A stretch of DNA of 64,000 nucleotides, taken from Phytohabitans suffuscus. Lineage in GTDB: Bacteria; Actinomycetota; Actinomycetes; Mycobacteriales; Micromonosporaceae. Made by a program: the position numbers and the translations under genes. The DNA is taken from NCBI RefSeq assembly GCF_011764565.1, contig NZ_AP022871.1, positions 8,804,320 to 8,868,319 of the forward strand. The letters are read 5' to 3'. The notes under the pieces were generated by a model. The model ran no database searches and had not been told where the DNA came from. It saw nothing but the letters and a program-made list of their open reading frames with translations. How positions within the stretch are numbered: position 1 is the first letter of the stretch; each line of letters starts with the position of its first letter. This document shows, piece by piece, positions 42,998 to 46,669 of the stretch.

Positions 42998-44989
42998 TCA
43001 GAAGCGGCCGCCGCCGGTACGCCGGGAGCGGCTGCCGCTGCCGCCGAAGCCGCCGCCCCGGAAGCCGCCGCCGCCCCAGCCGCGCGAGCGGCCGCCACCG
43101 CCACCGCCGGACAGGATGCCGCCGAGCAGCACGCCCAGCAGCACGTCGGTACCGCCGCCACCGCCGCCGCCGCCGATGCCGGGCGGGGTCCACTGGTCCA
43201 CGTTGGACTGCGCCGCCCGGCCGGCCTCGGCGGCGAGCTGGCCGGCCCGCTGGGCCTCGCCCAGCGCGGTCACCGGGTCGGACGGGGCCAGGGCCTCGGC
43301 GCGGGCCAGGTGCTGCTGGGCCTGCGCGAGCCAGGCGCGCGGCTGGCTGGCGACCGCGCCCCGGCGGGTGGCGATGAAGTCGCCGGCGGCGGTCACCTCG
43401 GCGCGGGCGGCGACCAGCGCGTGGTCGAGCATCGCGCGGGCGCGGGCGGCGCGCTCGGCGGCGTCGCGCACCTCGGCGAGCGCCCGGTCGAGCGCCGCGT
43501 CGGCCTCCTCCAGCCGGGCGGCCGTGGCCAGCGGGTCCGCGGTGGCGGCGGCGACGGCCGCGCGGGCGGCACCCAGGGCCTGCTCGGCGCCGGAGACCGC
43601 GGCGGCGAGGGCGGCGGTGCCCGGCTGGGCGGCGCGGGCGGCGGCCAGGTCGGTCTCCACCTCGGCGACGAGGGTGTCGACGGCGGCCCGCGCGGCGTCC
43701 AGGTCGGCGTGGGCGCGCTCGACGGCGTCGAGCAGGGTCCCCGCCTGGCCGAGCGCCTCCTCGGCGGCCCGTACGGCCAGGGCGGCCCGCGGCCGGTCGC
43801 CGGCGGTGAGCGCCTCGGTGGCCTGCCGGGTGACGGACGTGACGAACTCCAGCCGCCGCCGGGCCTGGTCGACGTTGCCGGCGATCCCGGCCGCCACCGG
43901 TCCCACGTAGCGGGCGCGCACCGCGTCGAGGGCGGCGGTGGCGGCCGGGACCCGGGCCTCCAGCTCCTCCTGCCGCGTGGCCTGCTCGGCCAGCTCGGTC
44001 TCCACCCGGGCCTCCAGGTCGCGCAGCGCGTCGAACGCCTCGGACTCCGCGTCCAGCCGGCTGTCCGCCGCTGTGCACCGCCGGATGATCTCCTCGAGCG
44101 TGCCGCGCCGGGTCGCCTCGTCCGGGCCGGGCGTCTCGTCGAGCGTCATCCGCAGCCGGAACGCCTCGGCCACGTCCTGCCGGGCGCTGTCCAGCGCCGC
44201 CGCGTACGACGCGGTCGCCTCGGCGCCGTACCGCCCGGCGGTCAGGGCCAGTTCCTGCTCGCTGGCGCGCAGGTCGTTGTCGAGCTCGACCAGCAGGTCG
44301 TTGGCCTTCGTGGTCAGCTCGGCGGTGCTCGGGCCGGCCGGGACACCGGGGCGCGGACGCCGCCGGCGCAGCAGCCACAGCACCAGCACCACGCCGCCGG
44401 CGACCAGCAGCAGGCAGAGCGCGCCGGCCACCCAGGCGCCGGCGCCGCCTCCCCCGCCGCCAGGGTCGGCCTCGCCGGGCTGGATCCGCGGGCTGGGCAC
44501 CGGCTGGCCGGCCAGCACCGCCCGGTAGCCGTCGGCGGCGGCGACCGCGGCGCCGGCCCAGTCGTTGGCCGACAGCGCCGGCTCGATCGCGACGCTGGCG
44601 ACGGTGTCGAGCTGGGTGTCGGTCAGCGGGAACTCGGTGTCGAACGCGTACGCGTACGCGCGGTCGCGGGTCGCCACCGCGAGGACCGCGTCGCGCCGGC
44701 CGAAGTCGCTGCGGGTGGCGGTCTGGTCGGCCCACCGCTGCGCCGGCGTACCGTCGAACGAGCGCACGTAGACCACGAAGAGCCGCAGCCCGCCGTCCGC
44801 CCGCAGCCGGTCGAGCGCTGCCCTCACCTCGCCCTCGCGCCCGTCGAGGGCACCGACCTTGTCGGTCACCTGGCTGTCAAGGCGTTCCGGACCATCCGCC
44901 CGAGCCGGACCCGCGAGCGCGAGCCCGCCGGTCAGTACGGCCAGGACCACCGCGACGGCCACGCGGGCCGGGCGCAACATCAACGACAC
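42998..44989 (-). CDS. TPM-domain membrane protein with coiled coil and Gly-rich tail
   Basis: 663 residues. A signal peptide (about 31 residues) is followed by a TPM domain (~35-165: 'LFVVYVRSFDGTPAQRWADQTATRSDFGRRDAVLAVATRDRAYAYAFD'). A membrane helix lies at ~180-205 ('AWVAGALCLLLVAGGVVLVLWLLRRRR'), then ~400 residues of Ala/Glu/Arg-rich coiled coil inside the cell, then a low-complexity Gly/Ser/Arg tail. TPM (YgcG/MgtE-associated) domains have been linked to phosphatase or membrane-repair roles; none is shown here. A related theme is the tiny polyglycine membrane peptide encoded just upstream. Confidence 0.85.
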   Translation of the reverse strand: MSLMLRPARVAVAVVLAVLTGGLALAGPARADGPERLDSQVTDKVGALDGREGEVRAALDRLRADGGLRLFVVYVRSFDGTPAQRWADQTATRSDFGRRDAVLAVATRDRAYAYAFDTEFPLTDTQLDTVASVAIEPALSANDWAGAAVAAADGYRAVLAGQPVPSPRIQPGEADPGGGGGGAGAWVAGALCLLLVAGGVVLVLWLLRRRRPRPGVPAGPSTAELTTKANDLLVELDNDLRASEQELALTAGRYGAEATASYAAALDSARQDVAEAFRLRMTLDETPGPDEATRRGTLEEIIRRCTAADSRLDAESEAFDALRDLEARVETELAEQATRQEELEARVPAATAALDAVRARYVGPVAAGIAGNVDQARRRLEFVTSVTRQATEALTAGDRPRAALAVRAAEEALGQAGTLLDAVERAHADLDAARAAVDTLVAEVETDLAAARAAQPGTAALAAAVSGAEQALGAARAAVAAATADPLATAARLEEADAALDRALAEVRDAAERAARARAMLDHALVAARAEVTAAGDFIATRRGAVASQPRAWLAQAQQHLARAEALAPSDPVTALGEAQRAGQLAAEAGRAAQSNVDQWTPPGIGGGGGGGGTDVLLGVLLGGILSGGGGGGRSRGWGGGGFRGGGFGGSGSRSRRTGGGRF

Positions 44990-45048
44990 CGGAACAGGCT
45001 ATGCCCCGGCGCCACGGACCCCGCTCCCGACCGCCGGAATCCGCGGGC

Positions 45049-45165
45049 TCAGTACCCGCCGCCCCCGCCACCGCCGCCCCCGCCCGCGGTCAGCGCGATG
45101 ATGACGATCACGATCACGACCACCGCGACGGCGATCCCGATGGTCAGCTTGGCTCTACCGGTCAT
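45049..45165 (-). CDS. 38-residue single-pass membrane peptide with polyglycine tail
   Basis: A short gene: ATG at 45165 with an excellent GGGAGGTG site 8 bases upstream, TGA at 45049-45051. The product begins MTGRAKLTIG, has an uninterrupted hydrophobic helix ('IAVAVVVIVIVIIALTA', ~17 residues) and ends with ten Gly and one Tyr. Positive residues at the N-terminus predict N-in topology with the Gly tail outside. It lies 60 bases before the TPM protein gene on the same strand, and that protein also has a Gly-rich end, so they may be co-transcribed. No known family. Confidence 0.6.
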   Translation of the reverse strand: MTGRAKLTIGIAVAVVVIVIVIIALTAGGGGGGGGGGY

Positions 45166-45297
45166 GCCGTTTCACCTCCCAGACGACCTGGATACCCCCG
45201 AAGGCCGCCCAATCACGCCCGCGCCGGTCGCCGGGGCGGCGGCGAAGGCGGCCCGCCGGTACGCGCGTAGCTCGCGATCGATGCGCATACTGTTGCG

Positions 45298-46326
45298 ATG
45301 CGCGTTACCCGACTTTCCCGGCGCGTCGCCGCCGCCGCGGTCGCCTCCCTGACCGTGCTCGCACCGGGCGCCGCCGCCCCGGCCGGCGCCGGCCGCCCGG
45401 GCAACCCCTGGCTCGACAGGCCGTTCGTCCACATCGCACACCAGGGCGGCGAGAGCGAGGCGCCGTCCAACACGATGTACGCCTTCCGCCGCGCGGTGCG
45501 CATCGGCGCCGACGTGCTGGAGCTCGACGTCCACTCCACCGCCGACGGCGTGCTGGTCGCCAGCCACGACGCGTCCGTCGACCGCACCACCGACGGCACC
45601 GGGCTGATCCGCGACAAGACCTACCGCGAGCTGCGCCGGCTCGACGCGGCGTACAACTTCGTGCCCGGCCGCAACGCCGTCCCCGGCCTGCCGCCGGAGG
45701 CGTACCCGCTGCGCGGCGTGCGCACCCACGACAGGCCGCCGCCCCGCGGCTACCAGGCCGGCGACTTCGCGGTCCCGGCGCTGCACGACGTGCTCCGCGC
45801 GTTCCGGCACGTGCCGCTCAGCATCGAGATCAAGGGCACCGCCGACGCGGACACCGAGTCGTTCCTGCGCAACGCCCGGCTCCTGGCCGACCTGCTCACG
45901 AAGGCCCACCGCACCCGCGACGTCATCGTGACCTCGTTCAACGACGCCGCGGTCGCCGAGTTCCACCGGCTGGCGCCGAAGGTCGCGCTGGCCCCCGGGA
46001 TGCGGGGGCTGACCGACTACTTCTTCACCGGCGCGCGGCCGATCGAGGGCACGGTCGCGCTCCAGGTGCCCGTCACCTACCAGGGGGTTCCGGTGGCCAC
46101 GCCGGAGTTCGTCGCCCGCGCGCACGCCGACGGGTACGCGGTGCACGTGTGGTTCAGCGGCACCGCCCCGGAGGACGGGCCCACGTACAACACGCTGATC
46201 GACGCGTGCGCGGACGGCTTGATGTCGTCGTGGCCGACGCTGATGGAACGGGTGCTCGACGAGCGCGGCCTCAGCGCACGACGCGGCAGACCAGCGAGTC
46301 CGCGGTGCCCCGGAACGCGCTCATGA
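45298..46326 (+). CDS. secreted glycerophosphodiester phosphodiesterase
   Basis: 342 residues with a signal peptide ('VAAAAVASLTVLAPGAAAPAGAG'). GDPD TIM-barrel motifs: 'FVHIAHQGGESEAPSNTMYAFRRAV', 'ADVLELDVHSTADGVLVASHDASVDRTTDGTG' and 'PLSIEIKGTADAD'. The usual first motif is His-Arg-Gly; here it is His-Gln-Gly, a substitution also found in some Actinobacteria but worth noting. It would release glycerol phosphate from lipid head groups outside the cell. Its last 56 bases overlap the opposing small secreted protein gene. Confidence 0.87.
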   Translation: MRVTRLSRRVAAAAVASLTVLAPGAAAPAGAGRPGNPWLDRPFVHIAHQGGESEAPSNTMYAFRRAVRIGADVLELDVHSTADGVLVASHDASVDRTTDGTGLIRDKTYRELRRLDAAYNFVPGRNAVPGLPPEAYPLRGVRTHDRPPPRGYQAGDFAVPALHDVLRAFRHVPLSIEIKGTADADTESFLRNARLLADLLTKAHRTRDVIVTSFNDAAVAEFHRLAPKVALAPGMRGLTDYFFTGARPIEGTVALQVPVTYQGVPVATPEFVARAHADGYAVHVWFSGTAPEDGPTYNTLIDACADGLMSSWPTLMERVLDERGLSARRGRPASPRCPGTRS

Positions 46327-46597
46327 CCACGTCCGTGGTGAGGAACTTGCAGGCGAGGTACGGGTCGCCGGAGCCGACGTACTGCGGCGGCCCGCCCGAG
46401 CCGGTGTAGCAGCGCAGCCCGGAGCTCTCGTAGAAGCCGATCCAGGCACTCGGGTACCGGGAGTGGCAGTAGTCGCCGATCGACAGCGGGCCGAACGGGA
46501 TGTCGACGACGGCGGCCTGTGCGGGCGCGGCCACCGCGAGCGCGCCCGCACAGGCCAGCGTCGCGCCGATGGCGAGGGTCAGGAGACGTCGAAACAC
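46271..46597 (-). CDS. small secreted protein of unknown function
   Basis: About 108 residues from the GTG at 46597 (AGAGG just upstream; a GTG at 46603 would add two residues). Signal peptide: 'LLTLAIGATLACAGALAVAAPAQA'. The mature ~80 residues contain four Cys ('IGDYCHSRYP', 'SGLRCYTGSGG', 'YLACKFLTTD', 'DSLVCRVVR'), likely two disulphides, and aromatic residues. No family recognised. Its 3' end overlaps the GDPD gene tail-to-tail. Confidence 0.7.
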   Translation of the reverse strand: MFRRLLTLAIGATLACAGALAVAAPAQAAVVDIPFGPLSIGDYCHSRYPSAWIGFYESSGLRCYTGSGGPPQYVGSGDPYLACKFLTTDVVMSAFRGTADSLVCRVVR

Positions 46598-46669
46598 GGG
46601 CACCTCTTCACGAAGGAAAGGGAAACTCCGCCTGGGGACCGGTCCTGGCGCTGGCCCCCAGTATCAATT

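Follow-up and report, generated by a model that had tools for sequence, protein, structure and literature searches.

A conserved glycine-tailed membrane micropeptide gene behind a predicted SigB-type promoter in Phytohabitans suffuscus and related actinomycetes

The window analysed here is a stretch of 64,000 nucleotides from the genome of Phytohabitans suffuscus (genome size 10.15 Mb). Within it, a very short reading frame lies on the minus strand between the gene of a TPM-domain protein and a divergent gene on the plus strand, and the features of the locus are as follows.

42998..44989, minus strand: TPM-domain protein, downstream neighbour (Pfam PF04536, E=1.9e-15; Gly-rich tail)
44996..45001, minus strand: conserved TAGCCT box 6 nt before the GTG start of the TPM gene (genus comparison)
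45049..45165, minus strand: coding sequence of the 38-aa membrane micropeptide, MTGRAKLTIGIAVAVVVIVIVIIALTA-G10-Y (conservation, coding pattern, architecture scan)
45173..45180, minus strand: ribosome binding site of the micropeptide, GGGAGGTG, 7 nt before the ATG
45192..45197, minus strand: predicted -10 element GGGTAT of a SigB-type promoter (family alignment; consensus from the part of PMC8346170 drawn on here)
45211..45216, minus strand: predicted -35 element GTGATT, 13 nt before the -10 element
45298..46326, plus strand: glycerophosphodiester phosphodiesterase-like protein, divergent neighbour (PF03009)

The original prediction described a 38-residue frame at 45049-45165 and left its strand unstated; the frame exists and is read on the minus strand, the plus strand of the same interval giving an unrelated reading (SVPAAPATAAP...). 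At 46271-46603, also on the minus strand, lies a frame for a protein of 110 aa that has no Pfam match; its N-terminus looks signal-like by eye.

The full 38-aa translation is MTGRAKLTIGIAVAVVVIVIVIIALTAGGGGGGGGGGY; the ATG lies at 45165, the TGA ends at 45049, and an in-frame stop stands three codons 5' of the ATG with no start codon in between. Its N-terminal part is basic and leads into a single, very hydrophobic helix, after which come ten glycines and a final Tyr. Mean hydropathy is 3.35 across 18 residues, and with 38 aa the product falls in the small single-pass size class. An AlphaFold2 prediction made with three sequences gave one helix at residues 3-27 (mean pLDDT 94 over residues 11-20) and a tail without structure. 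The clear start and stop, the strong ribosome site at 45180..45173, the membrane helix and the Gly10-Tyr tail that had been claimed from inspection are all found in the sequence. Of the 69 strong family members, 68 likewise have a GGAGG no more than 16 nt from the start.

A frame this short could arise by chance in GC-rich DNA, where Gly codons are common. Yet when 100 random sequences (Markov-1, 64 kb each) were put through an architecture scan, a single match came out, or 0.01 per window. Applied to real DNA from 106 sources, namely the window plus 105 TPM loci (1,070,862 bases in all), the same scan, which demands at least five Gly among the last nine residues and is escaped by copies with a poorer tail, returned solely the micropeptide and two Phytohabitans orthologues. 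The frame is also conserved across genera. When the single peptide was used as query against 121 relatives, 15 of these had matches at E<=0.01, including four of the six genomes of the genus. Profile A1, made of ten sequences, was searched against 354 Micromonosporaceae genomes with at most the best 20 candidates per genome, and at E<=5e-9 it matched at least 72 of them by hand count; 63 of the 72 belong to one genus, g4 (presumably Micromonospora), four to Phytohabitans and five to other genera. At a looser E<=0.01 at least 157 of the 354 genomes matched, a tally that was set aside because many of the weak matches sit in long frames. Judged from the sequence comparisons the micropeptide frame is a real conserved protein gene and not a chance frame, for which the probability is practically negligible.

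The original prediction had been made dependent on conservation of the frame in orthologous loci, and the frame was recovered in four of the six Phytohabitans genomes, though not in the other two, and many genomes from other genera have it as well. Among the best candidates of profile A1 (20 per genome at most) the micropeptide was found neither in these two nor in many other genomes of the family. By these profile searches, the distribution of the gene is patchy.

In all, 78 members were extracted, some strong hits being left out (e.g. G331 and G344). Their common pattern is M-A-S-x-x-[SAT]-[RK]-x-G-[LVI]-W-I-[AG]-x-A-V-..., followed by a Gly-rich tail and Tyr. The net charge before the helix is at least +1 in 76 of the 78, and the tail contains 4 to 12 glycines, its other residues being chiefly Asp, Asn and Ser. 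Tyr is the final residue in all 78 members; the extraction filter did not require a terminal Tyr, although the profile seeds all carried one. The basic-hydrophobic-polar layout would also suit a signal-peptide-like precursor, in which cleavage removes the hydrophobic part and sets free a short peptide, rich in Gly and ending in Tyr, to serve as a signal or a component of the wall, and many genus g4 copies indeed carry AIA-S before the tail. Usual signal peptides, however, have a hydrophobic stretch shorter than about 20 residues, whereas that of the micropeptide is about 20 residues long, and the junction of helix and tail is not a conserved AxA, since LTA, SMS, AMR, LMS and ASR are also present. 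Release of a tail peptide from such a precursor is accordingly regarded as quite improbable.

For 48 members, all of them 39 residues long, mismatch was compared by codon position: at positions 1/2/3 it was 0.106/0.144/0.452 in the tail and 0.323/0.212/0.405 in the part before it. The pN/pS of the tail was 0.22 with all four Gly codons in use, while that of the part before the tail was merely 0.66, a weak value for which exchange among I, V and L could account. Folding of the window mRNA was no better than that of shuffled sequence (z=0.13) and the window copy matched no Rfam family. Taken together, the codon-position mismatches, the pN/pS values and the two negative RNA results lead to the conclusion that the conserved product is most likely a protein, and the Gly tail is most likely kept as amino acids and not as a DNA repeat.

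The gene next door had seemed to offer a clue to function. The adjoining protein is, as predicted, a TPM-domain protein with a Gly-rich tail, and in the window it is separated from the micropeptide by 59 bp on one strand; in P. maris, too, the micropeptide directly precedes TPM. One may therefore imagine the micropeptide as a small subunit or regulator of its neighbour, both proteins having Gly-rich tails. Against this stands the arrangement in P. flavus and G002 (L030 and L031), where an NDH-2 gene sits between the two; the G002 NDH-2 protein carries Pfam PF07992 and NDH2_C. At E<=1e-60 a search for NDH-2 had no match in G000, G003 and G004. In G005, TPM is present, as is a separate NDH-2, and there is no micropeptide; in G004 none of micropeptide, TPM and NDH-2 was found at the thresholds used. 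Matches to NDH-2 in P. flavus and to TPM in G002 came in several pieces in different frames, so that these two genes are broken or contain sequencing errors.

Outside the genus the scan gave no such association. A survey of 105 TPM loci (80 loci plus another 25 whose flanks measure about 1.5 kb; contig ends truncate several) found the micropeptide in two, both from Phytohabitans; by architecture scan there was none in a third locus of the same genus (L040) and none in the 102 TPM loci outside it. The search for helix and Gly tail beside TPM genes, which the original prediction had recommended, thus leads back to Phytohabitans, and both this survey and the NDH-2 gene that intervenes in two of four Phytohabitans genomes speak against the pairing it implied. 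Furthermore, TAGCCTGT stands before the TPM start in all five genus genomes that have TPM, and it is likely, from this conservation, that TPM has its own leaderless promoter at the conserved box. A TPM partnership was therefore rejected, the micropeptide having other neighbours elsewhere as well, and the Gly-rich tail of TPM is no evidence for it because synteny fails outside the genus. As far as gene order can tell, functional coupling is unlikely and the adjacency appears incidental; a micropeptide serving as subunit or regulator of TPM is given very little credence.

The neighbours in genus g4 are of another kind. In 14 g4 loci taken at about 10 kb (L171-L182, L189 and L190) the micropeptide is followed on the same strand by a gene of 232-313 aa. 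One of these followers was identified by Pfam as a uracil-DNA glycosylase (UDG, PF03167), and ten of 11 follower starts begin MA-[EQ]-[QT]...GAQ-x-FIP, the eleventh being incomplete. Upstream of the micropeptide in g4 lies a GntR/aminotransferase (MocR-type) regulator. Different neighbours surround it in other genera, and no neighbour conserved across genera was found. Thirty UDG-site loci were also inspected, two of them peptide-bearing controls and two (L268 and L281) uncounted; in the 26 counted loci, from profile-negative genomes, the micropeptide was missing from 25, of which L263 and L284 offer just 194 and 244 bases. At the same place before UDG, L258 (G251) holds a degenerate relative, VSPGLKRAIGVVIAVAAVVVIIVFISLMSGGSAGRS, without the Gly-Tyr end.

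The UDG gene has a start-proximal box of its own: in those of the g4 loci L257-L286 that were inspected by eye, TATAAC, TAGAAC or TACAAC stands about 6-7 nt before the ATG. In 19 of the 26 peptide-less UDG loci GCGT-N15-GGGTA is also found upstream of UDG. The idea that a GNNT-N15-GGGTA before UDG in peptide-less genomes is an orphaned micropeptide promoter was dropped because UDG has its own box near the ATG with or without the micropeptide; given the GCGT-N15-GGGTA element, UDG itself may belong to a stress regulon.

These neighbours also bear on whether the frame could be a leader peptide, with translation of the Gly run controlling the gene downstream. A same-strand gene does lie downstream in genus g4 and in Phytohabitans. 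That gene varies, however (TPM, NDH-2 or UDG), and UDG and TPM have start-proximal boxes of their own. Moreover, the RNA shows no structure (z=0.13) and the helix sequence is conserved as well, and control of this type is considered highly improbable.

The best clue to the family comes from the DNA upstream of the gene. The promoter analysis was based on 69 strong members, with L034-L037, L183, L184 and L186-L188 from other genera left out; by eye, GGGTA is found close 5' of the start in five of these nine. In 67 of the 69 a GGG[TA]A box is spaced 21-28 nt from the start, and when the regions were aligned on this box a G was present at -19 in 67/67 and a T at -16 in 96%, two positions that had played no part in the alignment. 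After thinning to below 75% identity, 34 upstream regions remained, which are related to one another, and 29 of them have GNNT-N15-GGG[TA]A at this spacing from the start. In comparison DNA from 20 surrounding loci GNNT-N15 preceded 35 of 359 GGG[TA]A boxes, the micropeptide's own sites being counted in. The L166 upstream region lacks any such promoter motif.

According to the part of PMC8346170 drawn on here, which describes promoters found with a two-plasmid E. coli system, GGG and an A at the fifth -10 position are nearly invariant in promoters of the SigB homologues of Streptomyces coelicolor, and the SigB/L/M promoters have GNNT at -35. The SigB/SigL-dependent SCO7446p of the same source reads GTGATG-N14-GGGTAG, and the window's GTGATT-N13-GGGTAT resembles it, the window copy being without the T of the strict register. 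More exactly, the -10 of the window copy fits, the G of its -35 fits, and the position of the T of strict GNNT is taken by an A. Of strict GNNT, the copies in P. flavus and G002 keep the G alone. The case for the promoter is carried by the genus g4 members because all four Phytohabitans copies fail when the strict pattern is applied. For the same reason, the A at the T position of its -35, the micropeptide gene was missed by a strict search of its own genome for GNNT-N15-GGGTAT with GGAGG, which returned two other sites. This genome encodes three SigB/F/G-type sigma factors above the curated cut-off. We read the upstream element, from its agreement with the published consensus, as a probable signature of Streptomyces SigB-type stress promoters.

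In P. maris GTGATT-N13-GGGTAT is kept and the stretch with the ribosome site is gone, so that 9 nt separate the end of the box from the ATG. P. maris (L039:4740-4790) and L147 share this arrangement, in which the leader with its ribosome site is lost, the -35 and -10 are kept and GGGTAT stands 9 nt before the ATG. It is possible that the same gene has switched here from translation led by a ribosome site to leaderless translation.

A short, very hydrophobic product behind a stress-type promoter brings to mind the type I toxin-antitoxin systems TisB and Hok, whose toxins are short, have one hydrophobic helix and are stress-linked. The micropeptide might similarly be made under stress, insert into the membrane, lower the membrane potential and slow growth. 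Its size, single very hydrophobic helix, stress-type promoter and patchy distribution fit such a role, as does the DNA-repair gene adjoining the genus g4 copies. Type I toxins, however, have long inhibitory leaders, whereas the micropeptide has a short leader and an open ribosome site, with the -10 box only 21-28 nt from the start in 67/69 and GGAGG in 68/69. The window copy furthermore has no RNA structure beyond chance (z=0.13) and no Rfam match, and the conserved Gly-Tyr tail, which sets it apart from TisB and Hok, is to our knowledge no hallmark of a toxin. A toxin-like role is possible, though unlikely, and is less supported than that of a partner-binding micropeptide.

We therefore propose, with moderate confidence and from sequence comparison, that the locus holds a stand-alone gene for a stress-induced, SigB-class-controlled, single-pass membrane micropeptide (N-in, C-out) that would act on a membrane partner. 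RNA polymerase with a SigB-class sigma factor would transcribe the gene under osmotic, envelope or developmental stress. By the positive-inside rule the basic flank of a membrane helix stays cytosolic, and the N-in, C-out topology is predicted because basic residues precede the helix; the inserted micropeptide would thus have its N-terminus inside and its flexible Gly tail and terminal Tyr outside. More tentatively, the helix may bind and tune a larger membrane protein, such as a sensor, a transporter or an envelope enzyme, with the C-terminal Tyr as an exposed contact, a step modelled on other small membrane proteins of stress regulons.

One such protein is MgrB of Escherichia coli, which in the part of PMC8404706 drawn on here is described as a 47-aa inhibitor of the sensor kinase PhoQ with cytosolic N-terminal lysines, a periplasmic tail and a helix that contacts the partner. 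It is an analogue in the way it works, being a regulon-controlled, single-pass small membrane protein, and no homology is claimed. The S. coelicolor 'hydrophobic protein' SCO6509, monocistronic and with the SigB-type promoter GCCTGT-N12-GGGAAA (PMC8346170, same part), is alike by description, not by sequence, in being a monocistronic hydrophobic protein behind a SigB-type promoter, which differs from the window's GTGATT-N13-GGGTAT. MgrB differs in its known kinase partner, PhoQ.

One may also speculate that the C-terminal Tyr on its Gly tether is an external ligand, a SigB-class-driven stress signal for a C-terminus receptor or a PDZ-type protease, the class to which HtrA/DegS-like proteases belong. 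This is a long shot, but it would explain why Tyr ends 78/78 members though the tail glycines vary from 4 to 12, and it would account for three genomes from other families of the phylum in which a single helix is followed by a Gly-rich, Tyr-stop end.

These genomes emerged from profile searches of 396 genomes across the phylum, the own genome included in the counts. The first search matched 23 genomes at E<=1e-4 and the second 89 at E<=1e-3, and most of the listed matches fall in long frames and resemble ordinary membrane helices. Loci were taken for the best matches only, giving 51 (some places twice, own genome included), and among them a short Gly-rich Tyr-stop end is present at four places, which belong to three genomes from outside the family. 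The four (L232, L234, L236 and L254, from G460, G760 and G535) show the order basic-helix-Gly-rich-Tyr-stop in other families and with different neighbours. The profile A4 scores of three of them are circular because those three seeded A4, and no homology to the micropeptide is claimed for any.

The window copy gave no Pfam match at E<=0.001 and no NCBIfam match at E<=1, and the Pfam/NCBIfam hits of three relatives all lay below cut-off (e.g. SNARE, 16.6 bits vs 26.8). PDB sequences gave two hits at E=0.18, and tblastn of a plasmid collection with one relative gave no match. In GlyGly-CTERM, a sorting tail of large proteins, a Gly stretch precedes a C-terminal membrane helix; it resembles the micropeptide in having a Gly-rich segment beside a membrane helix, but the Gly run of the micropeptide follows the helix and ends the protein. 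Small stress-regulated membrane proteins are already known as a kind. A literature search at the level of titles and abstract openings found no description of such a micropeptide family, and as far as the searches made show, the Gly-run-Tyr end is new.

The TPM gene neighbour was a misleading clue, and small membrane proteins are easily overlooked in GC-rich actinomycetes. The architecture of this family, with basic N-terminus, helix, Gly run and Tyr-stop, is nonetheless recognisable even where Pfam and NCBIfam scans give no match. The promoter signature makes the regulation of the micropeptide family directly testable, and a Tyr at the end of a tether that varies in length raises the question of C-terminal recognition outside the membrane.
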